Below, in pieces: positions 941 through 39,884 of a DNA stretch of 64,000 nt. The stretch lies in assembly GCF_041381155.1 (NCBI RefSeq), contig NC_091145.1, forward strand, positions 42,745,697 through 42,809,696, in the 5' to 3' direction. Numbering within the stretch: position 1 is the stretch's first letter; the number at the start of each line of letters is the position of its first letter. The position numbers and the translations under genes were made by a program. A model generated the notes under the pieces. It ran no database searches, had not been told where the DNA came from, and saw nothing but the letters and a program-made list of their open reading frames with translations. The DNA comes from Argopecten irradians. Lineage: Eukaryota; Mollusca; Bivalvia; Pectinida; Pectinidae.

Positions 941-3900
941 TACCACCAACATTACTTTGTCTATTACTAGGACTTTGTCTATTTTTAATACAGACTTTTA
1001 TAATATTACTTAGTGTTTTACCACTTTGTCTATTACTAGGATTTTAATACAGACTTTTATAATATTACTTTGTTTACCACCTACATTACTTTGTCTAGGG
1101 ATTTAATACAGACTTTTATAATATTACTTAGTGTTTACCACCTACATTACTTTGTCTATTACTAGGATTTAATACAGACTTTTATAATATTACTTAGTGT
1201 TTACCACCTACATTACTTTGTCTATTACTAGGATTTAATACAGACTTTTATAATATTATTAGTGTGTTTACCACCTACATAACTTTGTCTATTACTAGGA
1301 TTTAATACAGACTTTTATAATATGACTTAGTGTTTACCACCTTCATTACTTTGTCTATTACTAGGATTTAATAACCAGTACAGACTTTTATAATATTACT
1401 TAGTGTTTACCACCTACATTACTTTGTCTATTACTAGGATTTAATACAGACTTTTATAATATTACTTAGTGTTTTTACCACCTTCATAACTTTGTCTATT
1501 ACTAGGATTTAATAACCAGTACAGACTTTTATAATATTACTTAGTGTTTACCACCTACATAACTTTGTCTATTACTAGGATTTAATACAGACTTTTATAA
1601 TATTATTAGTGTTTACCACCTACATTACTTTGTCTATTACTAGGATTTAATACAGACTTTTATAATATTACTTAGTGTTTACCACCTTCATTACTTTGTC
1701 TATTACTAGGATTTAATACAGACTTTTATAATATTACTTAGTGTTTACCACCTACATTACTTTGTCTATTACTAGGATTTAATACAGACTTTTATAATAT
1801 TACTTAGTGTTTACCACCTACATTACTTTGTCTATTACTAGGATTTAATACAGACTTTTATAATATTACTTAGTGTTTACCACCTACATAACTTTGTCTA
1901 TTACTAGGATTTAATACAGACTTTTATAATATTACTTAGTGTTTACCACCTACATTACTTTGTCTATTACTAGGATTTAATACAGACTTTTATAATATTA
2001 CTTAGTGTTTACCACCTACATTACTTTGTCTATTACTAGGATTTAATACAGACTTTTATAATATTACTTAGTGTTTACCACCTACATTACTTTGTCTATT
2101 ACTAGGATTTAATACAGACTTTTATAATATTACTTAGTGTTTACCACCTACATAACTTTGTCTATTACTAGGATTTAATACAGACTTTTATAATATTACT
2201 TAGTGTTTACCACCTACATTACTTTGTCTATTACTAGGATTTAATACAGACTTTTATAATATTACTTAGTGTTTACCACCTACATTACTTTGTCTATTAC
2301 TAGGATTTAATAATACAGACTTTTATAATATTACTTAGTGTTTACCACCTACATTACTTTGTCTATTACTAGGATTTAATACAGACTTTTATAATATTAC
2401 TTAGTGTTTACCACCTACATTACTTTGTCTATTACTAGGATTTAATACCAGTACAGACTTTTATAATATTACTTAGTGTTTACCACCTACATTACTTTGT
2501 CTATTACTAGGATTTAATACAGACTTTTATAATATTACTTAGTGTTTACCACCTACATTACTTTGTCTATTACTAGGATTTAATACAGACTTTTATAATA
2601 TTACTTAGTGTTTACCACCCTACATTACTTTGTCTATTACTAGGATTTAATACAGACTTTTATAATATTACTTAGTGTTTACCACCTACATTACTTTGTC
2701 TATTACTAGGATTTACCATACAGACTTTTATAATATTACTTAGTGTTTACCACCTACATTACTTTGTCTATTACTAGGATTTAATACAGACTTTTATAAT
2801 ATTACTTAGTGTTTACCACCTACATTACTTTGTCTATTACTAGGATTTAAACCATACAGACTTTTATAATATTACTTAGTGTTTACCACCTACATTACTT
2901 TGTCTATTACTAGGATTTAATACAGACTTTTATAATATTACTTAGTGTTTACCACCTACATTACTTTGTCTATTACTAGGATTTAATACCCAGTACAGAC
3001 TTTTATAATATTACTTAGTGTTTACCACCTACATTACTTTGTCTATTACTAGGATTTAATACCCAGTACAGACTTTTATAATATTACTTAGTGTTTACCA
3101 CCTACATTACTTTGTCTATTACTAGGATTTAATACAGACTTTTATAATATTACTTAGTGTTTACCACCTACATTACTTTGTCTATTACTAGGATTTAATA
3201 CAGACTTTTATAATATTACTTAGTGTTTACCACCTACATTACTTTGTCTATTACTAGGATTTTAAAACCAGTACAGACTTTTATAATATTACTTAGTGTT
3301 TACCACCTACATTACTTTGTCTATTACTAGGATTTAATACAGACTTTTATAATATTACTTAGTGTTTACCACCTACATTACTTTGTCTATTACTAGGATT
3401 TAATACAGACTTTTATAATATTACTTAGTGTTTACCACCTACATTACTTTGTCTATTACTAGGATTTAATACCCAGTACAGACTTTTATAATATTACTTA
3501 GTGTTTACCACCTACATTACTTTGTCTATTACTAGGATTTAATACAGACTTTTATAATATTACTTAGTGTTTACCACCTACATTACTTTGTCTATTACTA
3601 GGATTTAACATACAGACTTTTATAATATTACTTAGTGTTTACCACCTACATTACTTTGTCTATTACTAGGATTTAATACAGACTTTTATAATATTACTTA
3701 GTGTTTACCACCTACATTACTTTGTCTATTACTAGGATTTAATACCCAGTACAGACTTTTATAATATTACTTAGTGTTTACCACCTACATTACTTTGTCT
3801 ATTACTAGGATTTAATACCCAGTACAGACTTTTATAATATTAATTAGTGTTTACCACCTACATTACTTTGTCTATTACTAGGATTTAATACCCAGTACAG

Positions 3901-6900
3901 ACTTTTATAATACTACTTAGTGTTTACCACCTACATTACTTTGTCTATTACTAGGATTTAATACAGACTTTTATAATATTACTTAGTGTTTACCACCTAC
4001 ATTACTTTGTCTATTACTAGGATTTAATACAGACTTTTATAATATACTTAGTGTTTACCACCTACATTACTTTGTCTATTACTAGGATTTAATACAGACT
4101 TTTATAATATGACTTAGTGTTTACCACCTACATTACTTTGTCTATTACTAGGATTTAATACAGACTTTTATAATATGACTTAGTGTTTACCACCTACATT
4201 ACTTTGTCTATTACTAGGATTTAATACAGACTTTTATAATATGACTTAGTGTTTACCACCTACATTACTTTGTCTATTACTAGGATTTAATACAGACTTT
4301 TATAATATTACTTAGTGTTTACCACCTACATTACTTTGTCTATTACTAGGATTTAATACAGAGTACAGACTTTTATAATATTACTTAGTGTTTACCACCT
4401 ACATTACTTTGTCTATTACTAGGATTTAATACAGACTTTTATAATATTACTTAGTGTTTACCACCTACATTACTTTGTCTATTACTAGGATTTAATACCC
4501 AGTACAGACTTTTATAATATTACTTAGTGTTTACCACCTACATTACTTTGTCTATTACTAGGATTTAATACCCAGTACAGACTTTTATAATATTACTTAG
4601 TGTTTACCACCTACATTACTTTGTCTATTACTAGGATTTAATACCCAGTACAGACTTTTATAATACTACTTAGTGTTTACCACCTACATTACTTTGTCTA
4701 TTACTAGGATTTAATACAGACTTTTATAATATTACTTAGTGTTTACCACCTACATTACTTTGTCTATTACTAGGATTTAATACAGACTTTTATAATATTA
4801 CTTAGTGTTTACCACCTACATTACTTTGTCTATTACTAGGATTTAATACAGACTTTTATAATATTACTTAGTGTTTACCACCTACATTACTTTGTCTATT
4901 ACTAGGATTTAATACTCAGTACAGACTTTTATAATATTACTTAGTGTTTACCACCTACATAACTTTGTCTATTACTAGGATTTAATACAGACTTTTATAA
5001 TATTACTTAGTGTTTACCACCTACATTACTTTGTCTATTACTAGGATTTAATACAGACTTTTATAATATTACTTAGTGTTTACCACCTACATTACTTTGT
5101 CTATTACTAGGATTTAATACAGACTTTTATAATATTACTTAGTGTTTACCACCTACATTACTTTGTCTATTACTAGGATTTAATACAGACTTTTATAATA
5201 TTACTTAGTGTTTACCACCTACATTACTTTGTCTATTACTAGGATTTAATACTCAGTACAGACTTTTATAATATTACTTAGTGTTTACCACCTACATTAC
5301 TTTGTCTATTACTAGGATTTAATACAGACTTTTATAATATTACTTAGTGTTTACCACCTACATTACTTTGTCTATTACTAGGATTTTAATACAGACTTTT
5401 ATAATATTACTTAGTGTTTACCACCTACATTACTTTGTCTATTACTAGGATTTAATACAGACTTTTATAATATTACTTAGTGTTTACCACCTACATTACT
5501 TTGTCTATTACTAGGATTTAATACAGACTTTTATAATATTACTTAGTGTTTACCACCTACATTACTTTGTCTATTACTAGGATTTAATACAGACTTTTAT
5601 AATATTACTTAGTGTTTACCACCTACATTACTTTGTCTATTACTAGGATTAATAATACAGACTTTTATAATATTACTTAGTGTTTACCACCTACATTACT
5701 TTGTCTATTACTAGGATTTAATACAGACTTTTATAATATTACTTAGTGTTTACCACCTACATTACTTTGTCTATTACTAGGATTTATAATACAGACTTTT
5801 ATAATATTACTTAGTGTTTACCACCTACATTACTTTGTCTATTACTAGGATTTAATACAGACTTTTATAATATTACTTAGTGTTTACCACCTACATTACT
5901 TTGTCTATTACTAGGATTTAATACAGACTTTTATAATATTACTTAGTGTTTACCACCTACATTACTTTGTCTATTACTAGGATTTAATACCCAGTACAGA
6001 CTTTTATAATATTACTTAGTGTTTACCACCTACATTACTTTGTCTATTACTAGGATTTAATACAGACTTTTATAATATGAATATTACTTAGTGTTTACCA
6101 CCTACATTACTTTGTCTATTACTAGGATTTAATACAGACTTTTATAATATTACTTAGTGTTTACCACCTACATTACTTTGTCTATTACTAGGATTTAATA
6201 CAGACTTTTATAATATTACTTAGTGTTTACCACCTTCATTACTTTGTCTATTGTCTATTACTAGGATTTAGGATTTAATACAGACTTTTATAATATTACT
6301 TAGTGTTTACCACCTACATTACTTTGTCTATTACTAGGATTTAATACAGACTTTTATAATATTACTTAGTGTTTACCACCTACATTACTTTGTCTATTAC
6401 TAGGATTTTACCATACAGACTTTTATAATATTACTTAGTGTTTACCACCTACATTACTTTGTCTATTACTAGGATTTAATACAGACTTTTATAATATTAC
6501 TTAGTGTTTACCACCTACATTACTTTGTCTATTACTAGGATTTAATACAGACTTTTATAATATTATTAGTGTTTACCACCTACATTACTTTGTCTATTAC
6601 TAGGATTTAATACAGACTTTTATAATATTACTTAGTGTTTACCACCTACATTACTTTGTCTATTACTAGGATTTAATACAGACTTTTATAATATTACTTA
6701 GTGTTTACCACCTACATTACTTTGTCTATTACTAGGATTTAATACAGACTTTTATAATATTACTTAGTGTTTACCACCTACATTACTTTGTCTATTACTA
6801 GGATTTAATACAGACTTTTATAATATTACTTAGTGTTTACCACCTACATTACTTTGTCTATTACTAGGATTTAATACAGACTTTTATAATATTACTTAGT

Positions 6901-8282
6901 GTTTACCACCTACATTACTTTGTCTATTACTAGGATTTAATACAGACTTTTATAATATTACTTAGTGTTTACCACCTACATTACTTTGTCTATTACTAGG
7001 ATTTAATACAGACTTTTATAATATTACTTAGTGTTTACCACCTACATTACTTTGTCTATTACTAGGATTTAATACAGACTTTTATAATATTACTTAGTGT
7101 TTACCACCTACATTACTTTGTCTATTACTAGGATTTAATACAGACTTTTATAATATTACTTAGTGTTTACCACCTACATTACTTTGTCTATTACTAGGAT
7201 TTAATACAGACTTTTATAATATTACTTAGTGTTTACCACCTACATTACTTTGTCTATTACTAGGATTTAATACAGACTTTTATAATATTACTTAGTGTTT
7301 ACCACCTACATTACTTTGTCTATTACTAGGATTTAATACAGACTTTTATAATATTACTTAGTGTTTACCACCTACATTACTTTGTCTATTACTAGGATTT
7401 AATACTCAGTACAGACTTTTATAATATTACTTAGTGTTTACCACCTACATTACTTTGTCTATTACTAGGATTTAATACAGACTTTTATAATATTACTTAG
7501 TGTTTACCACCTACATTACTTTGTCTATTACTAGGATTTAATACAGACTTTTATAATATTACTTAGTGTTTACCACCTACATTACTTTGTCTATTACTAG
7601 GATTTAATACAGACTTTTATAATATTACTTAGGTTTACCATCATACTTTGTCTATTACTAGGATTTAATACGACTTTTATATATACTTAGTGTTACCACC
7701 TACATTACTTTGTCTATTACTAGGATTTTAATACAGACTTTTATAATATTACTTAGTGTTTACACCTACATACTTTGTCTATTACTAGGATTAATACAGA
7801 CTTTTATAATATTACTTAGTGTTTACCACCTACATTACTTTGTCTATTACTAGGATTTAATACCAGTACAGACTTTTATAATATTACTTAGTGTTTACCA
7901 CCTACATTACTTTGTCTATTACTAGGATTTTAACCAGTACAGACTTTTATAATATTACTTAGTGTTACCACCTACATTACTTTGTCTATTACTAGGATTT
8001 TAAACCCAGTACAGACTTTTATAATACTACTTAGTGTTTACCACCTACATTATTTGTCTATTACTAGGATTTTATACAGACTTTTATAATATTACTTAGT
8101 GTTTACCACCTACATTACTTTGTCTATTACTAGGATTTAATAACCAGTACAGACTTTTATAATATTAATTAGTGTTTACCACCTACATTACTTTGTCTAT
8201 TACTAGGATTTTAAACCCAGTACAGACTTTTATAATACTACTTAGTGTTTACCACCTACATTAATTTGTCTATTACTAGGTT
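941..8282. repeat. 66-bp minisatellite array, roughly 110 copies
   Basis: The core is 'cagacttttataatattact' followed by 'tagtgtttaccacc' and 'tacattactttgtctattac'. Spacing between successive 'cctacatt' words is 66 bp. A longer variant inserts about six bases ('cccagt') before 'acagac' and is scattered through the array. The unit has stops in the frames checked, so it is non-coding. The array lies in the copine intron that follows exon 7. The patch at about 7630-7800 is unusually rich in single-base deletions. Confidence 0.95.
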
Positions 8283-8413: not shown

Positions 8414-11400
8414 CTGTAAAAAAAATCAATTAATGACATTTAAATGCTGACATGGATTCAAATACATACAAACATATTTGCGGTAATAAGAGCCAAGGGT
8501 GCTTAAATAATTGTAACAAAAGCGGGAGCTTATTAATGAACCAAACTGTAAATTGTGGAGGAAAAAAGTACTCTTGTACTCATGGTACACTGATCTGTTA
8601 CAGTAAACATGTTCATGCCTTTTATCCTTTGAAACACATTATCATGTTGTGATTCACATGTAAAAGATTCACAAGTTCATGTTATATGGGATACAATGCT
8701 GATATTAGACCATTGGTATAACTTGTTGGTGTATATATCATATGGACATTGTATATAAGGAGTGATCCTAAAAGTAAGAATTCCATTGGTATAATTCTTG
8801 GTATATATCAATATACAGTTGTTGACTGGGGTTGAGGGAAACAGATGATTTGTTGGACCCGAAGACAAACTGTTGCTGAAGGCCAAAGGCAACTGTTGCT
8901 GAAGGCCAAAGGCCGAGAGGAACCGTTTGTGTGCGGGTCCAACAAATCATCTGTTGCCCGAAAGCTCATTCGATAACTGTTTTGTTATATCCCATTGTGA
9001 CGTCACTCCAGTCCAACAGCACATTTTAACGGTGGATTTTAACAGTTCTTTGGACCGCTGGACGGAACAGTTCATTTATTGGAATTTTTGTCGATATAAT
9101 TTATATAGAGACTATTTTATAGGAGTATAACAATATAAGCGACTTACCTATGATTCTCCCCTTCTGATAATTCTGTAGCCTGTTTAAAACAAACAATAAC
9201 ATGTGGATCATCATCAATATGATTTGTGAGAGCTTTAGGAGATGACTTCTTTCTATTTCAGGATCCACCAATATCTATAGTGTCTCTACTGTTACGTGAG
9301 TATACAGGGGTTTCATGGTCTTTCAGGAGAAATGGCACAATTACAATTTAAGGGGGTATTTTCTATACTATCTGTATGCTATATAATGTAATTTAGCCCA
9401 AATCAGGTGGTACTATAGCTAGGTTTAACTGGCAAGAAGTACTAGGTACGCCTGATATTGGCACTACGGAGTATACATGGTGTTCTATACACCAGGGCTC
9501 TCACAGTACAGTACCATTACAGAAAAACAAATATTGTTTAGGTACAGAGTGAAAGGCAATGAGAAGCAGTTTTTCAGATGCCCAAGGAACTAAACAAGGT
9601 TTTCAAAAATAGGCTTTAATAAATGGTAATCAATGTTACTCACGTTAAAGGTTTTTCTATTTTTCCTCCTGGAGATCCAACTATTTCTCCCAATGTTCCC
9701 TCATAACTTCCTAAAAAATCCTGAAATTATCATCACTATTCTAAATTTCTGATCATTCAAACCTGCTGTACACAACAATCTGTATATATATAACTGTGTT
9801 AAAATTGAAAAGTTTAACATGCATGTTGGCTTCTTGAGCTCGATAAAAGAATAAAACATAAAGAGAGGTAAAGTACACTGTCATAATGGAGAACATAATT
9901 AATTCATAAAGTCACAAAATAAAAATATGATGTGCAGTTTTCATTATGGAGCACTTGTACAAATCAAAGAACTTCAGTCATAATTCATCAGAAAGAGTCA
10001 TGTGGAGTTCTTCATTTTAATACTGAGTACTACAGTACTGGTATAAAAGAAACTAAGATATCCAAACAACAAAACAACTTACGTGAGCATCAAGACTGGC
10101 AGTATTGGAGTCTACATCATATCTGTAATATCAGAACAATACATGTATATTGGAGTCTACATCATATCTGTTATATAGAACATTACATGTACATTGGAGG
10201 CTACATCATATCTGTTATATAGAACATTACATGTATATTGGAGTCTACATCATATCTGTTATATAGAACATTACATGTATATTGGAGTCTACATCATATC
10301 TGTTATATAGAACATTACATGTACATTGGAGTCTACATCATATCTATTATATAGAACAGACAGAGCACAAAACAATATCCCCCGCAAACGTGTTTCGGGG
10401 GGGATAATAATAAATCTGTACAAGCTTATAATATAGTGGAAATAAACTAGATGTGTTGTCCAGGAGGCCAAATTTTACCCTCCACCCCTCAAACATATAT
10501 TATTCTACATAAAGTCAAATGTAAGGAAAATACTTACATGTCAAATCTTAATTTCTGAGATTCTTCGAAATAGTACTGCATTGTAAATTTCTTCACAAAG
10601 TCTGGGTCCAGTGTATCTTTTATCATCTCTGTTCGTCCGACCTAAAAAGTTGCATGATTTTCATTGAGTATATAGCTACAGTACTTGTGCAATTCATGGG
10701 CATAAAAACATCAACATATATATATATACAACAACATACAGCAAACAGATGACTGGCTATTGAAATGTATGGTATCAAGACTTTTAAATACATGTACATC
10801 AATTTACATACAAAAACTTTTCCATTTCCTTAAAATTCATCATTTTTGTATCATTTTAATAACTTTGTCTGAGCAAAATCAAGCAAACCCACTTGTCTAT
10901 TTGACTGTTTGCATGCTACTGTAAAAACAATTGTTACTGGTACAGTTTTGTAGAAGTAAATTCACACATGTCATATGCCAGTTCTCCTAAATCTTTGGTA
11001 TACAAGAAGCTTCTACTATTTCACTTCAAAACTCACTCATATGTATTTAATACAACTGTATATTGCAAGTCTGTTACACTATTTTTTGTGTAGTATATTT
11101 GGGTAATCATGACCAAATGACCTAAAAACTCACCTCATAGAATGAGCCTGTTTTCCTATCCTTAGTGTACATGACACACATTGGATCTGATTTAGAAAAC
11201 AAATCAGCATCCTTCAATCCCCTGAAACGATAAGTAATACAGTGAACAAAGTATTTCTCAGTCATCAGTACTAAAATATATCCTGAATTATATATATATA
11301 GAAATAAAAAACATTCGTAGTGAATGCAACTATGTGTTGTGATTCGAAAGACCTTATTTATGTAATAACATGCCCCGGATGTAAGGAATTTTACATTGGA

Positions 11401-13656
11401 GAGACCAGTAATACACTGAGAGCCCGTGTCCGTATACACAAACGACATATTAATGTACCGGAGTACAGGAAAATAAATTTAGGTAAACATTTTGACATTT
11501 GCGGAAAGAAAAGGTTTACTATATTTCCATTCTATAAAATGGCGTCACAATACACAATGACTATACTGTCATGACGTCATCTAATGTTGTTAAGCATCTG
11601 AAGAACATGATGAAAGCACTAATGCTAAACTAACAACGTGTTTCAATTTTTTATTTCTATATGTTTACCGGACACTGAGAATTTAATGTTATTCAATATA
11701 TATAAGCCATTTGACTGTCTGGACCACATATCCTACAGGAATCAAATCCAGTAAATCACAAACCAACTCATATGAAGGGATATTAGAAATACTGTATTCA
11801 ACCCAATAATTATAAGGACCCATGTCTCAGGCCCTATAAGCGCCCTTCCCCTTTTGGGGCCTCAATTTCAATTGCCCAGCCATAAATAAAGACAAAACTA
11901 TCAAAACTGTATAAGCTTTGCATTAAATTCGTCTTATTTAGCACCTTTCCATTTTTTTCAATTTTTTAAATGCCCTGGGCACTTATTGGGTTGAATATGG
12001 TAATAAGGATTCCAATAAACACATTTTGAGAAATTTCAAATAGCAATTAGATTGTAGCTGGAATCAACAATGGCAAGTTTGAGCTGAATTTCTTACAAGG
12101 GTGCCTAGAGCAAGAACGATATGGTAGCAAGTGTGACACTCCAGCATGACACTCCTGTATTTGAGTAACAGTTTTGCATTTAAGCAATTCATTGTGTTAC
12201 CCAAGATTCTGTAAAATGAAACAGATTTGGGTTTTTTTTTTAAATAACAATAATAAACCATGATCTTGGCACCCACTGAAGAATGATCAATGTTTGACAA
12301 TGGAAAAAGGGATCTTTCCTCTGCATACTTTTCAAACTTTTTCTTCATTGTACATGTGAAATTTGAAAATGACCCTTTTAGTACGTACTTTCTGAGATAT
12401 ATAGCAGTAACAAACAAATATCAATATCCAAGATGGCGTCCTGTCGGCCATCTTGCTCAATGATCGTTTCCAATATGCAATATGCACAACTAGGGACCCT
12501 GGGGAACCTGCACATGAAATTTGAGACAGATCCCTTCAGTAATTTCTGAATAATAGCAGTAACAAACTTCAAGTATCAAAATCCGAGATGGCGTCCTGTC
12601 AGCCATCTTGTTCACCGATTGCTGGATGGATAACTGTGACATTTGCTGTCTTCCATATGGTTAGGACTTTGTGCTCATCAGTGGATTGTTGGAAGATCTA
12701 TATATAGGGGTTCAGTGATAATTCCAGCAGTTTCTTTTATTAACTTAAGATGGACTTTGTCAGGCCCTTGAGCTTTAGTTGATTTCAGCTGCACGAGTAT
12801 TTTTTCACCTCAGCTTTATCTACATTTATAATATCATGTATTCGGATTTTTGAGAGTTCTTCATTTACTTATTTTGATGGAATGGCAGAGTATATGACTT
12901 GTGTCTTCTATGGTAAATATGTAATATAATTATTTTTATTTTAAAAATTCATAAAAATATTGTCAATGTCGATATATACAATGTATGGGGTACACAGTAT
13001 CCACTCAAACGTTTTTAACCTAGATATCAGTGGACAAGCAAAACGACAGCGAGGCAATCTGACTGCATTTTCCAAGTTCATAGTGAAATAAAGGTATGTT
13101 AATATATTATTTCGTGTTTGAATTTATGATTCCCTATTAAATATGTACATATTTATCCATGTTTGACGAAATACGGGCGACTTATGTAAAGGCAGGTGTA
13201 CCTCTTCCAAGCGAGCCGTTGGTTCCCCTGTCCTTTTATATAGTATATAGGCCTAGTAAACATGTATACACAGCAGACTTTCTCACAACCTACGTTACAA
13301 GTCCCTGTGGATTTAGCGGTGCTACCGGACCTGGTCCCATTATTTGTCCCAGCAAAGGTTGTGTTGTAGTGTTATGCCTAAGTATTTACGACTGTACTCG
13401 TTCTAGTGTATGGTTTAACAGTGTGTAGTTAGTGTGTATTTTGTTTCGTTTAGATGGGATGCTGATAGTAGCCTTGGGCAAACAAATCAGGGCGAACGGG
13501 TTTAGTCTGTTAGTCAGTTAGTTCGACCTGTCACCTGGACAGACACAGTATTTATATATATAATTACCTGCATGACACAGTAATTTCTACTTGAGATGCC
13601 GGTACTGCAGCTGTCCCGGCCTGGAAATTCCCCTGTGCACCTGGATAACCCGCCAT
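8385..13656 (-). CDS. Copine, N-terminal part: seven coding exons, first C2 domain complete
   Basis: Copines are cytosolic calcium-dependent phospholipid-binding proteins with two N-terminal C2 domains and a C-terminal vWA-like domain. Joining seven minus-strand exons (13656-13568, 11221-11134, 10641-10538, 10122-10083, 9720-9644, 9179-9148, 8413-8385) keeps one frame through every GT-AG junction and gives 153 residues. Residues ~23-133 form C2A. '[12 protein letters not shown]' supplies the loop-1 aspartates and 'YDVD' plus the following DAHDF supplies the loop-3 aspartates, so the calcium ligands look intact. 'VGRTEMI', '[11 protein letters not shown]' and '[10 protein letters not shown]' are copine-like, and 'GRIIVRAEE' is the linker before C2B. 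C2B and the vWA domain are not in the window, because the next intron contains the 7-kb 66-bp array. Which paralogue this is cannot be told from this part. Confidence 0.9.
8770..9130. mobile_element. Foldback/MITE-like element in copine intron
   Basis: Inverted arms sharing 'acagatgatttgttggaccc' (left ~8836-8861; right complement ~8934-8958) enclose a tandem pair of 'caactgttgctgaaggccaa'. The outer parts also show weak inverted similarity. Boundaries are uncertain and no ORF was found. Confidence 0.55.
9148..9179 (-). CDS. Copine coding exon 6 (micro-exon)
   Basis: 32 bp, acceptor tttaaacag, donor TAG|GTAAGT. It completes Thr133, encodes [10 protein letters not shown] (134-143) and leaves one base for Val144. 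Phase fits both neighbours, and GRII is the copine linker motif. Confidence 0.82.
9644..9720 (-). CDS. Copine coding exon 5
   Basis: 77 bp, acceptor ataatttcag, donor AAC|GTGAGT. Encodes [20 protein letters not shown] then IEKPL (108-132) plus two bases of Thr133. The DFLG...TLGEIV block is the typical last part of copine C2A. Confidence 0.88.
10083..10122 (-). CDS. Copine coding exon 4 (micro-exon, calcium loop 3)
   Basis: 40 bp, acceptor gatattacag, donor CAC|GTAAGT. It completes Ile94 and encodes [13 protein letters not shown] (95-107), the third calcium-binding loop. Its acceptor and first 19 bases are repeated in tandem in the intron immediately upstream (see the 44-bp array). Confidence 0.88.
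10146..10360. repeat. 44-bp array duplicating the copine exon 4 splice acceptor
   Basis: Copies of 'ggagtctacatcatatct' begin at about 10153, 10197, 10241, 10285 and 10329, spaced 44 bp. They continue from the genuine exon boundary at 10122 (first spacing 45). Read on the minus strand each unit is ...AG|ATATGATGTAGACTCCAAT, meaning the last acceptor bases plus 19 of the 40 bases of exon 4, followed by 25 bases of intron-like sequence. Confidence 0.85.
10538..10641 (-). CDS. Copine coding exon 3
   Basis: 104 bp, acceptor ctttttag, donor CAT|GTAAGTA. Encodes residues 60-93, from [15 protein letters not shown] to QKLRFD, matching the copine 'GRTE.I...L.P.F' block and the Y-F-E-x-x-Q-x-L-x-F strand. 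It ends two bases into an Ile codon. Confidence 0.88.
11134..11221 (-). CDS. Copine coding exon 2
   Basis: 88 bp, acceptor tcgtttcag, donor GAG|GTGAGT. It completes the split Arg and encodes [13 protein letters not shown] and onward to GSFYE (residues 31-59). The motif is the first calcium-binding loop of copine C2A. Confidence 0.88.
11296..11662 (+). mobile_element. Penelope-like retroelement fragment with GIY-YIG endonuclease
   Basis: The frame at 11320-11574 encodes '[20 protein letters not shown]' followed by [11 protein letters not shown] and GKHFDIC. This is the GIY-YIG endonuclease pattern found at the C-terminus of Penelope-like elements (IYVITC...YIGET...R...H). The reverse transcriptase is absent, so this is a 3' remnant. 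Perfect 16-bp inverted repeats bound it (11296-11311 and 11647-11662). At ~11606-11630, 'gatga', an AGCA/TGCT stem and 'aaac' resemble a decayed hammerhead ribozyme core, as such elements carry. It sits antisense in copine intron 1. Confidence 0.75.
11792..12000. mobile_element. 209-bp MITE with TA target duplication
   Basis: The left end 'ctgtattcaacccaataa' and the right end 'ttattgggttgaatatgg' are inverted repeats, each flanked by TA (11790-11791 and 12001-12002). No ORF. The form fits a Tc1/mariner-type non-autonomous element. Confidence 0.7.
12060..12640. repeat. Dispersed repeat in two diverged direct copies with inverted AAGATGGC/GCCATCTT
   Basis: Two ~150-bp segments align: 'gaaatttgaaaatgaccctt' with 'gaaatttgagacagatccct', then 'gcagtaacaaac', then 'gatggcgtcctgtc' and 'gccatcttg'. 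Each contains a short inverted pair ('agatggc' / 'gccatct'). I recognise the type as a common bivalve dispersed repeat. No coding evidence. Confidence 0.6.
12620..12900 (-). pseudogene. LINE reverse-transcriptase fragment
   Basis: Minus-strand translation gives [19 protein letters not shown], then AGIITEPLY, and after a frame change [11 protein letters not shown]. These match the RT blocks 'K..GPD.....LK' and 'WK.A.V..I'. In-frame stops and at least one frameshift show that it is dead. It is an intronic remnant in copine intron 1. Confidence 0.7.
12900..13567. other. Copine intron 1, no recognised feature
   Basis: AT-rich sequence without a supported gene. An open frame at 13159-13428 on the plus strand has no recognisable domain and lies opposite the copine gene. 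Confidence 0.5.
13568..13656 (-). CDS. Copine coding exon 1 (start codon)
   Basis: ATG at 13656-13654 in good context (gctgccATGGCG). It encodes 29 residues, beginning [11 protein letters not shown] and ending QVEITVSC, then two bases of an Arg codon. The donor is TGCAG|GTAATT. The Gly/Ala/Pro-rich leader of ~22 residues precedes the first C2 beta strand (VEITVSC). Confidence 0.85.
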
Positions 13657-17704: not shown

Positions 17705-17929
17705 TCTGCCACGATAGGGCCTTCTTCAGTCGAAAATAACACTAACACCTCGATTTGCGTTCAGGACTACATTATGTACATCAAAGATGCTGTCACGTAC
17801 AATGTCCAAATATCATTGATATATTCTGAATTAAAGATTGTGGTTGTCCTAGATAGCTGACATCGAGTCAGCATGTGACCAAGGACGTATATATCTCACT
17901 TTTAAATCCTTGATGTGACCGAATATTTT

Positions 17930-18230
17930 GCCTACGTCGTAGTGGCCCATTGGTTAAGATGTCCCGACATATTACATGTACCACAAACCCTCCACCTCTG
18001 GGATGCGGGTTCGAAATCCACGTGGGGTAGTTGCCAGGTACCAGAAACATTTATACATATGTACATTGTATATATGTTTCTGCAGGTACTGACCGCTGGG
18101 CGGTGTTTTTTCTCTGAATACTTCGGTTTTTCCCCACCAACACAAACCTGGAACGTCTTTAAATGACCCTGGCTGTTAAAAGGACGTAAATTGATAAAAC
18201 CAAATATCAATGCATGTGTAGGTATCACAG
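17930..18230 (+). mobile_element. tRNA-derived SINE, plus strand
   Basis: The head has an A-box-like 'tggcccattggttaaga' and a B-box-like 'gggttcgaaatcc'. The body has 'tgaccgctgggcggtg' and the tail has 'cgtctttaaatgaccctggc' followed by 'tgttaaaaggacgtaaa'. This arrangement matches bivalve SINEs with a conserved 3' tail. It is a transposon, not a functional tRNA gene. Confidence 0.75.
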
Positions 18231-18239
18231 AATAAATTT

Positions 18240-18363
18240 TGTATTTAGCGCCAAGAGTACTGGGTTGTAATTAAGTTGAGCGCCACCTGTTGGCCAGGTA
18301 AGTGACCGTGTTATCAGTATGGCGACTATCCGTGTTTGTTGATCAGCTACAGAAATAAGACAG
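18240..18363 (+). promoter_or_regulatory. Possible 5' untranslated exon of the CD225-like gene
   Basis: Two donor-like sites lie here: CAG|GTAAGT after 18297 and ACAG|GTAACC after 18363. Downstream on the same strand the first good acceptor is in the 19.9-kb array. An ATG at 18319 opens only a seven-codon frame. The assignment is inferred from position and needs transcript data. Confidence 0.3.
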
Positions 18364-18369
18364 GTAACC

Positions 18370-19139
18370 CAATTTGTTAGTTATTAGAACTTATAAAGTT
18401 TAAGTTTTAATACCTACTGTTGTCTAGCTGTAATGTTATATGGAGGTCACGTCATGTACACATGTATGACCTTTACACATCAAACACCTGAGCTGTATAC
18501 GTCATTACAAAGTTATATTTAGCTGTTATATATGGGGATCTCTTGTTGTAACCCGAATCCAATAATAAAGATTACGGCGTTGAGAACGTTAACTGTAGAA
18601 TGGAATCAAACCTCAATAGCCTGTATTCAGTCGTCGCAAGTTCCGCTCTCAAAAAATCAACACGCCATGGGGCACGAGTCGCCTGATCGTTAGATGTAGG
18701 TATTGAGATTTTTTATATGATGCTTATCAGAAGTTTCTCATCGTCTAAACTCGAACATGGTTAGAGAGGAGGTATAACCTACATGTATTGAACATTGCTC
18801 AGCTGATCGAGAGAGCTATTTATTGACATGACCCAATGTGTTTCTCTAAAAACTAATACTTTGATATTCTATTGACTACAAGTACTATAAATCTGACCCT
18901 AGCCGAGATTCAAATATACAAATATATACCACTTTGTGTGATACTTTGGAGTGGTAAATGTAATATATATGAGTCTGGTCCAACCCTTGATGATGAAGGC
19001 ATCAATTTCAACCTTGTTTAAATCCTTAATATTCTTCCATGGACTTCACCTGACTGGTTCATGCATTAGGTCATATTGGGTGAGAGCAATCATATATCAC
19101 TGTGTAACTTTAAAGGCAGCTGGTCCCTGACACTCTAAG
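18370..19139. other. No recognised feature
   Basis: Unique AT-rich sequence. If the upstream donor is used, it would be part of the 5' intron of the CD225-like gene. Confidence 0.4.
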
Positions 19140-19850
19140 ACCCAATAATTATTCTTATTATTCTCTTTATTTCCTCCAATTTGAAGATTACATAAATAGA
19201 ATAACATACATGTAATACAATATTCAACATGGCTTAATCTGTACAAAGAATAATGTAAGTGATGTGACAACTAGCTGAGTAGATGTACATACAACTATTT
19301 AGTACTATCTATAGTGCAGTATAGTGGTGCAAAATAATTAATAGACAATAATATATATAATAATGATAATAATTATAGTCAATAAATAAAAAGAATAATA
19401 ATGATAATAATAAAAATCAGGGGAAAAAATTAACACTTCAGTATGTATATATACACAATGAACCCAATCAATTAACTACACATACAAGTAGTAAGAATAG
19501 TCATAATTAGACGTGATAACTATTTGAAAAAATAATTTAACATTTTTGAAACATATCTGACAGAAACGTGGCGAAATACTATTATATCTATACTGTTCAA
19601 ATCATACATAATTTTACCACCTATAAGTATATGAAATAATTGGAAGTCTGAATGGGAATGTAAGTATACGTTAAAACCGATTCCATCTATACTTAAAAGC
19701 TCGCACCATAACCGATCTCGCACCTCTTCCGTAAATCCACACTGTAACACAATATGCGTATATATTTCATTATACATTTTCCCACACCTATGACATAAAT
19801 CTAATTTATCCGTCTCTGGACTTCTTAAATCAACAACCAATCAGTAATGA
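19140..19850 (-). pseudogene. LINE C-terminal and 3' UTR fragment
   Basis: Minus-strand frame 19840-19520 encodes 106 residues, beginning MVVDLRSPETDKLDLCHRCG, then HIVLQC. The C-x2-C...H-x4-C arrangement near the end of the protein is typical of the C-terminus of non-LTR retrotransposon ORF2. Reading on, the 3' region ends in 'aaataaagagaataataaga'. RT and endonuclease are missing, so this is a 5'-truncated copy. Confidence 0.6.
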
Positions 19851-19896
19851 AATGCAGAATTAATTATTGTGGAAAAGTTATAATTTATTATGAATG

Positions 19897-20938
19897 AGTC
19901 TGGTGTCAGTGTCACTTTCTGATGAACGTAGACGACCTATTTTGTGAATTAATATTTAATATTCATCCTCTATTTATGCTAATTTTTACTCCTTCAGATC
20001 AAAGATGGCGAAGCGATACCAGCCTTAGTCTGGTGTCTGTGTCACTTTCTGATGACCGTAGACGACCTATTTTGTGAATTGATATTTTATATTTGTCCTC
20101 TATTTATGTGAATTTTTACTCCTTCAGATCAAAGATGGCGAAGCGATACCAGCCTTAGTCTGGTGTCTGTGTCACTTTCTGATGACCGTAGACGACCTAT
20201 TTTGTGAATTGATATTTTTATATTTGTCCTCTATTTATGTGAATTTTTACTCCTTCAGATCAAAGATGGCGAAGCGATACCAGCCTTAGTCATGGTGTCT
20301 GTGTCACTTTCTGATGACCTTAGACGACCTATTTTGTGATTGATTATTTTTATATTTGTCCTCTATTTATGTGAATTTTTACTCCTTCAGATCAAAGATG
20401 GCGAAGCGATACCAGCCTTAGTCTGGTGTCTGTGTCACTTTCTGATGACCGTAGACGACCTATTTTGTGAATTGATATTTTATATTTGTCCTCTATTTAT
20501 GTGAATTTTTACTCCTTCAGATCAAAGATGGCGAAGCGATACCAGCCTTAGTCTGGTGTCTGTGTCACTTTCTGATGACCGTAGACGACCTATTTTGTGA
20601 ATTGATATTTTATATTTGTCCTCTATTTATGTGAATTTTTACTCCTTCAGATCAAAGATGGCGAAGCGATACCAGCCTTAGTCTGGTGTCTGTGTCACTT
20701 TCTGATGACCGTAGACGACCTATTTTGTGAATTGATATTTTATATTTGTCCTCTATTTATGTGAATTTTTACTCCTTCAGATCAAAGATGGCGAAGCGAT
20801 ACCAGCCTTAGTCTGGTGTCTGTGTCACTTTCTGATGACCGTAGACGACCTATTTTGTGAATTGATATTTTATATTTGTCCTCTATTTATGTGAATTTTT
20901 ACTCCTTCAGATCAACGATGGCAAAGCGATACCAGCCT
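19897..20938 (+). repeat. 130-bp array copying a splice acceptor, start codon and first seven codons
   Basis: Eight copies of ~130 bp. Each holds the polypyrimidine/acceptor 'tttttactccttcag', then 'atcaaag', then ATGGCGAAGCGATACCAGCC. ATGs are at 20005, 20135, 20266, 20398, 20528, 20658, 20788 and 20918. In the first seven, MAKRYQP is followed at once by TAG. The eighth (ATGGCAAAG...) continues into the long coding region. All eight ATGs have A at -3 and G at +4. The first copy is the most diverged, as expected for an array edge. Confidence 0.92.
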
Positions 20939-21670
20939 GGTGAGGGTATAGTGGGGGACGATGAGTTAGCCTATGATAGCGAGCTCCAGCCCCATCTCGG
21001 CCATTTACAGTTCGATAATGAAGGATTTACACCATTCGATTTCAACAACCCTGAAAATAACAATGAAAATGCAAAACCTTCTGATAAGGCTAATATAGAG
21101 CCAGAGGTCAAATCAGGTCAAGATCAAAATGTCACCTCCAGTGTGCAACAAAATGGCAGTGCTACCAGCGAACCATCAGTAACTATTCTGACAGATAACT
21201 CAAATCAAAATGGAAATGCCCAACCTCATGGTACTCCAGTTCATTTTAAAAGTTCTTCAGAATCAACTGCCAAATCAAAGGCACGTAACAAAGATCATGT
21301 TGTGATCCGAACGGCTAATATACAGGAAACAGAGAGATGGAGAGACTTGGAGCGACAGCGTCCCCTGAGACAGAGGCACATCATGTTGTTAAAAATCTTT
21401 GGTGTTATTGCATGTTTTTTCTTCTTCCCAACCGGCATACCAGCTATGTATTATGCATTTAAAACTGAAAAAGAATTTGATGAAGGCATTATGCGTGGTA
21501 ATATTGATGAAGCTCAGAGATGTGCAAGGAAATCAGAAAGGTTAATTATTTTTTCTGGTCTCCTTGCTATACTGACAGCGGTGATTGTGTTCGCTGTAGT
21601 GGAACGGTCCCTCATGGACGAACAAGCCTACTGGGACAGCCATAGCTCCAGTCGCGTCCTTCCACCCTAA
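20918..21670 (+). CDS. Two-pass membrane protein resembling the CD225/dispanin family
   Basis: 250 residues, MAKRYQPGEGIVGDDE... to SSSRVLPP. Residues 1-150 are polar and low-complexity (Asn/Gln/Ser-rich), probably disordered and cytosolic. A basic stretch (ERWRDLERQRPLRQRH, 139-154) precedes a hydrophobic segment at ~155-181 containing 'FFFFPTGIPAMYYAFKTEKE'. The loop 'GNIDEAQRCARKSE' (194-207) leads to a second hydrophobic segment at ~208-228. The P-x-G-x-x-A-x-x-Y-x-x-K ... G-[DN]-x-x-x-A-x-x-x-[AS]-x-[KR] pattern is that of CD225 (IFITM/dispanin) proteins; the family call is inference from this pattern only. The start at 20918 is chosen because it follows the acceptor and is the only array ATG with a long frame. 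Coding appears intronless after the acceptor. Membrane location is likely; the partner or function is unknown. Confidence 0.75.
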   Translation: MAKRYQPGEGIVGDDELAYDSELQPHLGHLQFDNEGFTPFDFNNPENNNENAKPSDKANIEPEVKSGQDQNVTSSVQQNGSATSEPSVTILTDNSNQNGNAQPHGTPVHFKSSSESTAKSKARNKDHVVIRTANIQETERWRDLERQRPLRQRHIMLLKIFGVIACFFFFPTGIPAMYYAFKTEKEFDEGIMRGNIDEAQRCARKSERLIIFSGLLAILTAVIVFAVVERSLMDEQAYWDSHSSSRVLPP

Positions 21671-22105: not shown

Positions 22106-23480
22106 GTGTTATATTCAAGGGAGGATAACGTTATACCAATTATGTAATGTACATGTATGGGTCCAAGGGGAGATTGTTATACCAATTATGTAATGTACAT
22201 GGTTCCAAGGGGAGAATTGTTATACCAATGTTTATGTAATGTACATGGTATGGGTCCAAGGGGAGATTGTTATACAATATGTAATGTACATGGTATGGTC
22301 CAAGGAATGTTATACCAATTATGTAATGTACATGGTATGGGTCCAAGGGGAGATTATTATACCAATTATGTAATGTACATGGTATGGGTCCAAGGGGAGA
22401 TTATTATACCAATTATGTAATGTACATGGTATGGGTCCAAGGGGAGATTATTATACCAATTATGTAATGTACATGGTATGGGTCCAAGGGGAGAGATTGT
22501 TATACCAATTATGTAATGTACATGGTATGGGTCCAAGGGGAGATTATACCAATTATGTAATGTACATGGTATGGGTCCAAGGGGAGATTATTATACCAAT
22601 TATGTAATGTACATGGTATGGGTCCAAGGGGAGATTGTTATACCAATTATGTAATGTACATGGTATGGGTCCAAGGGGAGATGTATTATACCAATTATGG
22701 TAATGTACAATGGTATGGGTCCAAGGGGAGATTATTATACCAATTATGTAATGTACATGGTATGGGTCCAAGGGAGATTGTTATACCAATTATGTATGTA
22801 CATGGTATGGGTCCAAGGGGAGATTGTTATACCAATTATGTAATGTACATGGTATGGGTCCAAGGGGAGATTATTATACCAATTATGTAATGTACATGGT
22901 ATGGGACCAAGGGGAGATTATATACCAATTATGTAATGTACATGGTATGGGTCCAAGGAGAGGTAATTATACCAATTATGTAATTTACATGGTATGGATC
23001 CAAGGGGAGGTATTATACCAATTATGTAATGTACATGGTATGGGTCCAAGGGGAGGTAATTATACCAATTATGTAATGTACATGGTATGGGTCCAAGGGG
23101 AGATTATTATACCAATTATGTAATGTACATGGTATGGGTCCAAGGGGAGATTATTATACCAATTATGTAATGTACATGGTATGGGACCAAGGGGAGATTA
23201 TTATACCAATTATGTAATGTACATGGTATGGGTCCAAGGAGAGGTAATTATACCAATTATGTAATTTACATGGTATGGATCCAAGGGGAGGTAATTATAC
23301 CAATATGTAATGTACATTGTTTGGGTCTAAGAGGAGGTAATTATACCAGTTATGTACATGGTATGGATCCAAGGGGAGGTAATTATGCCAATTATGTACA
23401 GAATATGGTGTGGGTCCTAGGGGAGATAATTATGTGCAGTAAATGATATGGGTCTAAGGGGAGGTAATAATACCAATCAG
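22106..23480. repeat. 47-bp minisatellite array, about 29 copies
   Basis: The unit is 'ggtatgggtccaaggggaga' plus 'ttattataccaattatgtaa' plus 'tgtacat'. The copies from ~23280 rightward are increasingly diverged ('gaggaggtaattat'). Open frames inside it are by-products of the repeat. Confidence 0.93.
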
Positions 23481-26715: not shown

Positions 26716-27147
26716 AAGTATAAGTATAATACTGGGTCAAGGTCTATAACTCGGCCGGCCATATAACACTACCCAATTTCAGAAAAAGTATGATTATTAA
26801 CAAACCGTATAGGATATGATAATAGGAATACTCTCAATCGACAGCCAGATAATTTATCTTTAATTTGGTATATGATACAATATATATCATGCCGTATAAA
26901 TGTCACTAGGTATCCAGAAACATCGGAAAACAGCCAGATTTCAACTGGTCGGACACTGGTGTCCTCCGATAAACACGCCAGGGCTCTAATGGGTAGCTCA
27001 AAAACCACTGCATGTCAACATTTCAGCTTCATAGGAATTAAAGTTTGGTTTTTTAATGTTTGTTAATAATCATACTTTTTCTGAAATTGGGTAGTGTTAT
27101 ATGGCCGGCCGAGTTATAGACCTTGACCCAGTATTATACTTATACTT
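26716..27147. mobile_element. 432-bp element with 90-bp terminal inverted repeats
   Basis: 26716-26805 is the near-perfect reverse complement of 27058-27147; both include 'actcggccggccatataaca'. The interior (252 bp) has no recognised protein. No clear target duplication was found, so the superfamily is unknown. Confidence 0.75.
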
Positions 27148-31157: not shown

Positions 31158-34100
31158 TGTAACAAAGCTTTGTTTGAGGGTCCTAACAAAGTGTGACTAT
31201 AATTTGAGGGTCCTTACAAAGTGTGACTATAATTTGAGGGTCCTAACAAAGTGTGACTATAATTTGAGGGTCCTTACAAAGTGTGACTATAATTTGAGGG
31301 TCCTTACAAAGTGTGACTATAATTTGAGGGTCCTTACAAAGTGTGACTATAATTTGAGGGTCCTTACAAAGTGTGACTATAATTTGAGGGTCCTTACAAA
31401 GTGTGACTATGATTTGAGGGTCCTTACAAAGTGTGACTATAATTTGAGGGTCCTTACAAAGTGTGACTATAATTTGAGGGTCCTTACAAAGTGTGACTAT
31501 AATTTGAGGGTCCTTACAAAGTGTGACTATAATTTGAGGGTCCTTACAAAGTGTGACTATAATTTGAGGGTCCTTACAAAGTGTGACTATAATTTGAGGG
31601 TCCTTACAAAGTGTGACTATAATTTGAGGGTCCTTACAAAGTGTGACTATAATTTGAGGGTCCTTACAAAGTGTGACTATAATTTGAGGGTCCTTACAAA
31701 GTGTGACTATAATTTGAGGGTCCTTACAAAGTGTGACTATAATTTGAGGGTCCTTACAAAGTGAAATTTGGTCCTACAAGTGTGACTATATTTGAGGGTC
31801 CTTACAAAGTGTGACTATAATTTGAGGGTCCTTACAAAGTGTGACTATGATTTGAGGGTCCTTACAAAGTGTGACTATAATTTGAGGGTCCTTACAAAGT
31901 GTGACTATAATTTGAGGGTCCTTACAAAGTGTGACTATAATTTGAGGGTCCTTACAAAGTGTGACTATAATTTGAGGGTCCTTACAAAGTGTGACTATAA
32001 TTTGAGGGTCCTTACAAAGTGTGACTATAATTTGAGGGTCCTTACAAAGTGTGACTATAATTTGAGGGTCCTTACAAAGTGTGACTATAATTTGAGGGTC
32101 CTTACAAAGTGTGACTATAATTTGAGGGTCCTTACAAAGTGTGACTATAATTTGAGGGTCCTTACAAAGTGTGACTATAATTTGAGGGTCCTTACAAAGT
32201 GTGACTATAATTTGAGGGTCCTTACAAAGTGTGACTATAATTTGAGGGTCCTTACAAAGTGTGACTATAATTTGAGGGTCCTTACAAAGTGTGACTATAA
32301 TTTGAGGGTCCTTACAAAGTGTGACTATAATTTGAGGGTCCTTACAAAGTGTGACTATAATTTGAGGGTCCTTACAAAGTGTGACTATAATTTGAGGGTC
32401 CTTACAAAGTGTGACTATGATTTGAGGGTCCTTACAAAGTGTGACTATAATTTGAGGGTCCTTACAAAGTGTGACTATAATTTGAGGGTCCTTACAAAGT
32501 GTGACTATAATTTGAGGGTCCTTACAAAGTGTGACTATAATTTGAGGGTCCTTACAAAGTGTGACTATAATTTGAGGGTCCTTACAAAGTGTGACTATAA
32601 TTTGAGGGTCCTTACAAAGTGTGACTATAATTTGAGGGTCCTTACAAAGTGTGACTATAATTTGAGGGTCCTTACAAAGTGTGACTATAATTTGAGGGTC
32701 CTTACAAAGTGTGACTATAATTTGAGGGTCCTTACAAAGTGTGACTATAATTTGAGGGTCCTTACAAAGTGTGACTATAATTTGAGGGTCCTTACAAAGT
32801 GTGACTATAATTTGAGGGTCCTTACAAAGTGTGACTATAATTTGAGGGTCCTTACAAAGTGTGACTATAATTTGAGGGTCCTTACAAAGTGTGACTATAA
32901 TTTGAGGGTCCTTACAAAGTGTGACTATAATTTGAGGGTCCTTACAAAGTGTGACTATAATTTGAGGGTCCTTACAAAGTGTGACTATAATTTGAGGGTC
33001 CTTACAAAGTGTGACTATAATTTGAGGGTCCTTACAAAGTGTGACTATAATTTGAGGGTCCTTACAAAGTGTGACTATAATTTGAGGGTCCTTACAAAGT
33101 GTGACTATAATTTGAGGGTCCTTACAAAGTGTGACTATAATTTGAGGGTCCTTACAAAGTGTGACTATAATTTGAGGGTCCTTACAAAGTGTGACTATAA
33201 TTTGAGGGTCCTTACAAAGTGTGACTATAATTTGAGGGTCCTTACAAAGTGTGACTATAATTTGAGGGTCCTTACAAAGTGTGACTATAATTTGAGGGTC
33301 CTTACAAAGTGTGACTATAATTTGAGGGTCCTTACAAAGTGTGACTATAATTTGAGGGTCCTTACAAAGTGTGACTATAATTTGAGGGTCCTTACAAAGT
33401 GTGACTATAATTTGAGGGTCCTTACAAAGTGTGACTATAATTTGAGGGTCCTTACAAAGTGTGACTATAATTTGAGGGTCCTTACAAAGTGTGACTATAA
33501 TTTGAGGGTCCTTACAAAGTGTGACTATAATTTGAGGGTCCTTACAAAGTGTGTGACTATAATTTGAGGGTCCTTACAAAGTGTGACTATAATTTGAGGG
33601 TCCTTACAAAGTGTGACTATAATTTGAGGGTCCTTACAAAGTGTGACTATAATTTGAGGGTCCTTACAAAGTGTGACTATGATTTGAGGGTCCTTACAAA
33701 GTGTGACTATAATTTGAGGGTCCTTACAAAGTGTGACTATAATTTGAGGGTCCTTACAAAGTGTGACTATAATTTGAGGGTCCTTACAAAGTGTGACTAT
33801 GATTTGAGGGTCCTTACAAAGTGTGACTATGATTTGAGGGTCCTTACAAAGTGTGACTATAATTTGAGGGTCCTTACAAAGTGTGACTATAATTTGAGGG
33901 TCCTTACAAAGTGTGACTATAATTTGAGGGTCCTTACAAAGTGTGACTATAATTTGAGGGTCCTTACAAAGTGTGACTATAATTTGAGGGTCCTTACAAA
34001 GTGTGACTATAATTTGAGGGTCCTTACAAAGTGTGACTATAATTTGAGGGTCCTTACAAAGTGTGACTATAATTTGAGGGTCCTTACAAAGTGTGACTAT

Positions 34101-36510
34101 AATTTGAGGGTCCTTACAAAGTGTGACTATAATTTGAGGGTCCTTACAAAGTGTGACTATAATTTGGAGAATGTTAGTACAGTACAGAGTGACTATAATT
34201 TGAGGGTCCTTACAAAGTGTGACTATAATTTGAGGGTCCTTACAAAGTGTGACTATAATTTGAGGGTCCTTACAAAGTGTGACTATAATTTGAGGGTCCT
34301 TACAAAGTGTGACTATAATTTGAGGGTCCTTACAAAGTGTGACTATGATTTGAGGGTCCTTACAAAGTGTGACTATAATTTGAGGGTCCTTACAAAGTGT
34401 GACTATAATTTGAGGGTCCTTACAAAGTGTGACTATAATTTGAGGGTCCTTACAAAGTGTGACTATAATTTGAGGGTCCTTACAAAGTGTGACTATAATT
34501 TGAGGGTCCTTACAAAGTGTGACTATAATTTGAGGGTCCTTACAAAGTGTGACTATAATTTGAGGGTCCTTACAAAGTGTGACTATAATTTGAGGGTCCT
34601 TACAAAGTGTGACTATAATTTGAGGGTCCTTACAAAGTGTGACTATAATTTGAGGGTCCTTACAAAGTGTGACTATAATTTGAGGGTCCTTACAAAGTGT
34701 GACTATAATTTGAGGGTCCTTACAAAGTGTGACTATAATTTGAGGGTCCTTACAAAGTGTGACTATAATTTGAGGGTCCTTACAAAGTGTGACTATAATT
34801 TGAGGGTCCTTACAAAGTGTGACTATAATTTGAGGGTCCTTACAAAGTGTGACTATAATTTGAGGGTCCTTACAAAGTGTGACTATAATTTGAGGGTCCT
34901 TACAAAGTGTGACTATAATTTGAGGGTCCTTACAAAGTGTGTGACTATAATTTGAGGGTCCTTACAAAGTGTGACTATAATTTGAGGGTCCTTACAAAGT
35001 GTGACTATAATTTGAGGGTCCTTACAAAGTGTGACTATAATTTGAGGGTCCTTACAAAGTGTGACTATAATTTGAGGGTCCTTACAAAGTGTGACTATAA
35101 TTTGAGGGTCCTTACAAAGTGTGACTATAATTTGAGGGTCCTTACAAAGTGTGACTATAATTTGAGGTCCTTACAAAGTGTGACTATAATTTGAGGGTCC
35201 TTACAAAGTGTGACTATAATTTGAGGGTCCTTACAAAGTGTGTGACTATAATTTGAGGGTCCTTACAAAGTGTGACTATAATTTGAGGGTCCTTACAAAG
35301 TGTGACTATAATTTGAGGGTCCTTACAAAGTGTGACTATAATTTGAGGGTCCTTACAAAGTGTGACTATAATTTGAGGGTCCTTACAAAGTGTGACTATA
35401 ATTTGAGGGTCCTTACAAAGTGTGACTATAATTTGAGGGTCCTTACAAAGTGTGACTATGATTTGAGGGTCCTTACAAAGTGTGACTATAATTTGAGGGT
35501 CCTTACAAAGTGTGACTATAATTTGAGGGTCCTTACAAAGTGTGACTATAATTTGAGGGTCCTTACAAAGTGTGACTATAATTTGAGGGTCCTTACAAAG
35601 TGTGACTATAATTTGAGGGTCCTTACAAAGTGTGACTATAATTTGAGGGTCCTTACAAAGTGTGACTATAATTTGAGGGTCCTTACAAAGTGTGACTATA
35701 ATTTGAGGGTCCTTACAAAGTGTGTGACTATAATTTGAGGGTCCTTACAAAGTGTGACTATAATTTGAGGGTCCTTACAAAGTGTGACTATAATTTGAGG
35801 GTCCTTACAAAGTGTGACTATAATTTGAGGGTCCTTACAAAGTGTGACTATAATTTGAGGGTCCTTACAAAGTGTGACTATAATTTGAGGGTCCTTACAA
35901 AGTGTGACTATAATTTGAGGGTCCTTACAAAGTGTGACTATAATTTGAGGGTCCTTACAAAGTGTGACTATAATTTGAGGGTCCTTACAAAGTGTGACTA
36001 TAATTTGAGGGTCCTTACAAAGTGTGACTATAATTTGAGGGTCCTTACAAAGTGTGACTATAATTTGAGGGTCCTTACAAAGTGTGACTATAATTTGAGG
36101 GTCCTTACAAAGTGTGACTATAATTTGAGGGTCCTTACAAAGTGTGACTATAATTTGAGGGTCCTTACAAAGTGTGACTATGATTTGAGGGTCCTTACAA
36201 AGTGTGACTATGATTTGAGGGTCCTTACAAAGTGTGACTATGATTTGAGGGTCCTTACAAAGTGTGACTATAATTTGAGGGTCCTTACAAAGTGTGACTA
36301 TGATTTGAGGGTCCTTACAAAGTGTGGACTATATTTGAGGGTCCTTACAAAGTGTGACTATAATTTGAGGGTCCTTACAAAGTGTGACTATAATTTGAGG
36401 GTCCTTACAAAGTGTGACTATAATTTGAGGGTCCTTACAAAGTGTGACTATAATTTGAGGGTCCTTACAAAGTGTGACTATAATTTGGAGAATGTTAGTA
36501 CAGTACAGAG
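31158..36510. repeat. 30-bp array, about 177 copies, open as decapeptide NLRVLTKCDY
   Basis: The unit is 'aatttgagggtccttacaaa' plus 'gtgtgactat'. On the plus strand one frame is open and reads NLRVLTKCDY; on the minus strand one frame is open (IVTLCKDPQI). Long plus frames are broken by a +2 variant ('aagtgtgtgact' at ~33549, 34937, 35238, 35720) and by irregular patches at ~31765-31795 and ~35165. The commonest variant changes one base (CDYN to CDYD). The leader 31042-31157 has no recognised domain and no ATG at the frame start. I annotate it as a minisatellite, not a gene. Confidence 0.93.
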
Positions 36511-39880: not shown

Positions 39881-39884
39881 ATCG

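Follow-up and report, generated by a model that had tools for sequence, protein, structure and literature searches.

A minisatellite repeating a predicted splice acceptor and the first codons of a CD225-domain gene in the scallop Argopecten irradians

The window analysed here, that is, the whole stretch of DNA under study, comprises 64 kb of the Argopecten irradians genome; positions are counted from its first base and features lie on the plus strand unless stated otherwise. Tandem arrays cover 61% of the window (23 arrays in the TRF table, merged by hand), and with such an abundance it is unremarkable in itself that one of them falls on the first exon of a gene. Very long minisatellites are found at 984-8280 (66 bp units), 31173-36487 (30 bp) and 39880-44228 (38 bp), and about 330 copies of a 42 bp unit make up a further minisatellite at 47478-61374. 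A foldback element with long inverted arms was recognised by eye at 26740-27145. The minus strand carries, at 9148-13656, a gene that we take to be copine-like by resemblance. Its exon 1 lies at about 13656-13568 (MAGYPGAQ...VEITVSC), and further exons lie near 11221-11134, 10641-10538, 9710-9644 and 9179-9148, all with limits set by eye; one of the three exons scanned matches C2 (E=0.0026, below the curated cut-off), and the others gave no match or a chance match. Within its presumed first intron there is a GIY-YIG fragment on the plus strand (11308-11571; PF01541, 1.7e-5), which is perhaps part of a Penelope-like element.

The main gene of the locus is an uninterrupted reading frame of 250 codons plus stop at 20918-21670, which codes for a CD225-domain protein and contains no intron. 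The CD225 profile (PF04505) matches residues 163-223 with E=1e-8 and 35.6 bits, against a curated cut-off of 27.1. A protein search returned 14 relatives, including pectinid proteins from Pecten maximus (85% identity), Ylistrum balloti (81%) and Mizuhopecten yessoensis (76%); these three share the MAKRYQP start, and the next relative, at 57% identity, starts with MAKQYQL. Judged from these sequences, the frame is a real conserved scallop gene. One protein reported as 100% identical, P0001, carries V in place of M at a single position, and the 929-base contig from which it derives ('lgn') might be of transcript origin. The sole match among solved structures was a weak one to proline-rich transmembrane protein 1 (E=0.075). 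In the IMG/VR viral contigs, two stretches fitted a pattern, neither of them coding for a relative of the CD225 gene, and a further search gave no matches. The copine-like gene points away from the CD225 gene, and its start codon (minus strand, near 13656) is about 7 kb from that of the CD225 gene. On the downstream side, a 47-bp minisatellite occupies 22131-23433, about 460 bases past the stop codon. Because none of the four AATAAA-type signals sought in a scan to 24200 occurs between the stop codon and 23437, the 3' untranslated region of the CD225 gene may run through this repeat.

The start of the gene coincides with a tandem array at 19897-20938, which TRF called with a period of 130, 8.0 copies, 97% matches and 0% indels. 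Alignment resolved it into eight head-to-tail units of 130-132 bp, starting at 19897, 20027, 20157, 20288, 20420, 20550, 20680 and 20810. Each unit contains, in this order, a pyrimidine tract, CAG, ATCAA(A/C)G, ATG and the remaining codons of MAKRYQP, and the sequence common to all eight is TTTTTACTCCTTCAG^ATCAA(A/C)GATGGC(G/A)AAGCGATACCAGCCT (the caret, here and below, marks the predicted splice point). In units 1-7 the MAKRYQP codons are closed by TAG at the unit junction, and unit 8 runs on into the 250-codon frame. The seven decoy ATGs are located at 20005, 20135, 20266, 20398, 20528, 20658 and 20788, and the genuine ATG at 20918; two bases set the genuine start apart from each of the seven decoys, one at position -2 and one at the third position of codon 2. 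The first decoy exon-like piece (19998-20028) consists of ATCAAAG followed by ATGGCGAAGCGATACCAGCCTTAG, which specifies MAKRYQP and the stop, and six later pieces of the same make-up start at 20128, 20259, 20391, 20521, 20651 and 20781. Ahead of the real ATG, the bases presumed to open the genuine exon are ATCAACG (20911-20917), which follow the last predicted acceptor (CTTCAG^ATCAACG). A at -3 and G at +4 surround the start in all eight units; unit 4 has one additional strong ATG, and every unit has further ATGs in weaker context. An array combining a repeated acceptor-like site, ATG, MAKRYQP and stop was the core of the original prediction, and it lies exactly where it had been placed, with the strong start context described there and with every unit copying the first seven codons of the downstream 250-residue protein.

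Eight units at 97% matches rule out a chance origin of the array. It does not belong to a repeat family dispersed in the window either, since no 14-mer of the unit at 20550-20679 was found elsewhere in the window on either strand, and a known structured RNA was rejected because a scan of the whole 64-kb window found neither an Rfam match at the gathering score nor a tRNA. A 106-residue frame on the minus strand (19523-19840), 56 bp above the array, has a faint likeness to zf-RVT, the end of a reverse-transcriptase element, at E=0.14, below the cut-off.

Comparison of the units revealed five types, in the order unit 1; units 2, 5, 6 and 7; unit 3; unit 4; and unit 8. Units 2, 5, 6 and 7 are identical, unit 3 differs from them by one extra T, and unit 4, an older or more altered copy, by five substitutions and two gap columns. 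Relative to the identical type, unit 1 (19897-20026), at one edge, has 8 substitutions, and unit 8 (20810-20938), which bears the genuine start, has 2, both in the exon-like part. Between units 1 and 8 there are differences in 10 of 131 columns. At the eight of these sites that lie in the 5' part, where unit 1 has diverged, units 2-7 (20027-20809) agree with unit 8, with one exception next to an indel in unit 4; the two sites in the 3' part have the unit-1 base throughout units 2-7. From this mixed likeness we infer that the inner units descend from a chimera produced by crossover. A single tandem duplication would have given two copies, with the new junction CCT-T-AG closing the copied frame with TAG. 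The two copies would then have diverged at about 10 of 131 sites, and an unequal crossover, with its exchange point within the block of 22 identical columns that surrounds the acceptor, would have produced a chimeric unit with its 5' part from the downstream copy and its 3' part from the upstream copy. Amplification of this unit to six copies would have left the edge units with their differences, and it looks recent because units 2, 5, 6 and 7 are identical. The breakpoints of the duplication are alike, AGTCTGGTG above and AGCCTGGTG below, with 8 of 9 bases in common. The unit junction, CAGCCTTAGTCTGG, retains both breakpoint stretches, so a plain exchange in register does not explain it, and the T that creates the TAG was probably an insertion or a later change. 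The locus offers a worked example of the birth of an array, with the signature of a single crossover still legible.

The identity of units 2, 5, 6 and 7 would also be compatible with an assembly or haplotype effect, in which the true copy number is lower or the eight units represent a short-lived allele of a hypervariable locus. Arrays in amphioxus differ by haplotype, and the authors report that one of them had been assembled wrongly in the draft genome (PMC3087553). The occurrence of five distinct unit types in order argues against this explanation, as do edge units that differ as those of a real array would and a length of about 1 kb, which should be short for long reads. We consider such an effect quite unlikely.

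Candidate splice sites were scored with matrices of generic values, not trained on scallop genes, on which all donor and acceptor scores and ranks given here rest; with these, the acceptor score is 6.26 in all eight units, that is, at the seven decoy pieces and at the genuine exon. Only nine of the 4403 AGs on the plus strand reach this score, namely the array's eight and one at 9262, which surpasses them, and 23 of 3685 do so on the minus strand. An acceptor as good was present in 31 of 2000 shuffled units. On the donor side, CAG^GTAAGT at 18298, 1.6 kb above the array (GGCCAG^GTAAGTGACC, candidate donor of a leader intron at 18298-18303), ranks first among the 5482 GTs of the plus strand, and 11 of 1000 shuffles of 17800-19896 held a donor as good. 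The matrices were roughly checked on the copine-like gene, in which the five donors (limits set by eye) rank 2, 6, 21, 24 and 34 of 4050 and the four acceptors (limits also by eye) rank 43, 173, 252 (or 443, with an alternative exon-4 site) and 305 of 3685; all four of these acceptors score below the array acceptor. Taken together, the acceptor and donor scores, the shuffles and the check on the copine-like gene make a leader intron from about 18298 likely. This candidate intron would span 18298-20910 if spliced to the last acceptor and 18298-19997 if spliced to the first, and alternative upstream donors exist, for example at 14610 (rank 5). A tRNA-derived SINE-like stretch, recognised by eye at 17930-18220, ends within the 100 bases upstream of the candidate donor. 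Decoy units acting as cassette exons were rejected, given that the best donor-like site within the unit scores 0.2, compared with 6.58 just after unit 8.

The same arrangement could be read as a promoter array with no leader intron, each unit being a core promoter with a transcription start near its ATG. The repeat would then multiply promoters and not acceptors, and transcripts from unit 8 would be clean, those from higher units carrying upstream open reading frames (uORFs). This fits the intronless coding frame, the AT-rich TATA-like stretches visible by eye in each unit and the sequence ATCAA(A/C)GATGGC(G/A)AA, which partly resembles the short-leader initiator element and the YY1 site. We nevertheless regard the promoter reading as rather unlikely, because each ATG is preceded at a distance of 7 bases by a high-scoring acceptor, the strand's best donor is found upstream in the right order, and the decoys are a better fit to the initiator element than the genuine start.

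The consequences of acceptor choice were computed from the predicted leaders. Splicing to acceptor 1 would give a leader with 22 upstream AUGs, 8 of them with R at -3 and G at +4, splicing to acceptor 7 would leave three, 1 of them strong, and splicing to acceptor 8 none; no frame in a decoy leader extends to the true start. The expectation that use of the last copy gives a clean mRNA agrees with this count. The expectation that use of an upstream copy adds short uORFs also holds, except that the number proposed originally, one to seven, was too low: an mRNA spliced to an earlier copy, if any is made, would contain 3 to 22 upstream AUGs and would presumably yield little protein.

These numbers bear on the proposal that the array is a regulatory decoy, in which the spliceosome divides its choice among the eight acceptors, and the uORF load and copy number tune protein output. 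The proposal is consistent with the equal acceptor score of all eight units, with seven decoy starts in A-3, G+4 context that end after seven codons, and with the 1 to 8 strong AUGs among the 3 to 22 that an upstream choice adds. Furthermore, the coding frame is in one exon, so the frame would hold no exon junction below the uORF stops and junction-dependent decay may spare the decoy mRNAs. Against it, the decoy exon part and acceptor show no excess conservation, in a comparison of low power, and the anatomically similar amphioxus arrays known as mirages are reported as harmless to regular splicing (PMC3087553, PMC3902484). No selection on the decoy starts was seen between units 1 and 8, which differ in 8 of the 103 intron-like columns and in 2 of the 28 exon-like ones (Fisher p=1, with low power at ten differences). 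The identical acceptor core was rejected as support for function, since an equally long difference-free stretch occurs in 45% of random placements of 10 differences. We give little credence to the regulatory proposal. An elaboration of it, a start-codon mirage working as a genetic rheostat, appears very doubtful; here the eight equal acceptors would compete, copy number and splicing conditions would fix what share of the mRNA gets to the last one, this share would determine the level of CD225 protein, and the seven start copies would serve as translation sinks.

The explanation that we favour, and consider fairly probable from the sequence, is that the array is a mirage-type minisatellite that is passed over by splicing to the last acceptor. 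The repeat unit would extend from the 3' end of the leader intron into the coding exon of the CD225 gene, taking in its first 28 bases. The precursor would be spliced from a donor such as that at 18298 to the last acceptor, and the upstream copies would leave with the intron, giving a clean mRNA. On this explanation the amplification is ordinary for repeat-rich DNA and no regulatory role is needed. As in mirages, all eight copies carry a splice signal and part of an exon, here the predicted acceptor-like CTTCAG^ATCAA and seven codons. The inner copies are likewise homogenised with the edge copies excluded. The repeat would also cross an intron-exon boundary: the array ends in the first codons of the real gene, and the acceptor and donor scores speak for an intron. 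The eight units, however, share one and the same acceptor sequence, from the pyrimidine tract to the end of ATCAA; a win for the last one is therefore not accounted for by sequence alone, and a first-come model of acceptor choice would favour the first. A strong donor-like GTGAGG at 20940 (20938-20950; rank 3 of 5482), within the coding frame just past the array, counts against the mirage explanation, which leaves it unexplained. The Mizuhopecten protein lacks two residues at the position matching 20938-20950.

Should the intron be real, its eight matched acceptors constitute a natural test of choice among identical 3' splice sites, and with a start codon in each copy a wrong choice of acceptor would be costly and readily detected in RNA or ribosome reads. 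If a mollusc mirage holds, as the array suggests, boundary-spanning minisatellites occur beyond cephalochordates, perhaps wherever minisatellites abound.

In the amphioxus globin gene BflGb6, the repeats join the 3' end of an intron to the 5' part of the exon that follows it, and they precede the authentic exon; 6 and 3 units of 150-160 bp each are present on two haplotypes, and the inner copies are homogenised with the edge copies excluded (PMC3087553). Amphioxus mirages are known in BflGb6, BflGb9 and Adh3 (PMC3087553) and also in troponin C (PMC3902484), and many copies contain splice signals (PMC3087553, PMC3902484). For BflGb6, RT-PCR suggested regular splicing (PMC3087553), and the Adh and troponin C mirages are likewise reported without interference with regular splicing (PMC3902484). 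PGBD5, which has been compared with mirages, contains imperfect 60 and 108 bp repeats (PMC3902484). The scallop array and BflGb6 are alike in unit length, copy range, the homogenisation of inner copies and the exclusion of edge copies, and, if the intron is real, in placement. The agreement in unit length carries little weight, since mirage units vary widely, those of Adh3 measuring 10-72 bp (PMC3087553). Unlike the amphioxus mirages, the scallop array is in a mollusc, its exon part comes from the first coding exon and holds the initiation codon, and its upstream copies end in an in-frame stop. Mis-splicing would therefore add uORFs in the scallop.

The statement in the original prediction that no described system of this form was known needs to be narrowed, because the tandem boundary-spanning architecture already has a precedent in the amphioxus mirages. 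The repeated start codon is the new element. In the literature searched, which leaves most subscription papers outside, no title or abstract provided a precedent for a start codon or uORFs within such a repeat, and no paper was found that joins a bivalve minisatellite with an exon and a splice site. In leaders controlled by uORFs, such as that of yeast GCN4, short frames with a good start context can lower translation from the main start. The short frames of the scallop array differ from these in being probably intronic in the normal mRNA and in repeating the gene's own first codons almost without change. The copy number of a 5'-end repeat can affect output in promoter and leader VNTRs, such as the 28-bp repeat of TYMS. 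An effect of the scallop array on output is only conjectural, and, in contrast to repeats of the TYMS type, its unit carries an acceptor-like site together with a start codon.
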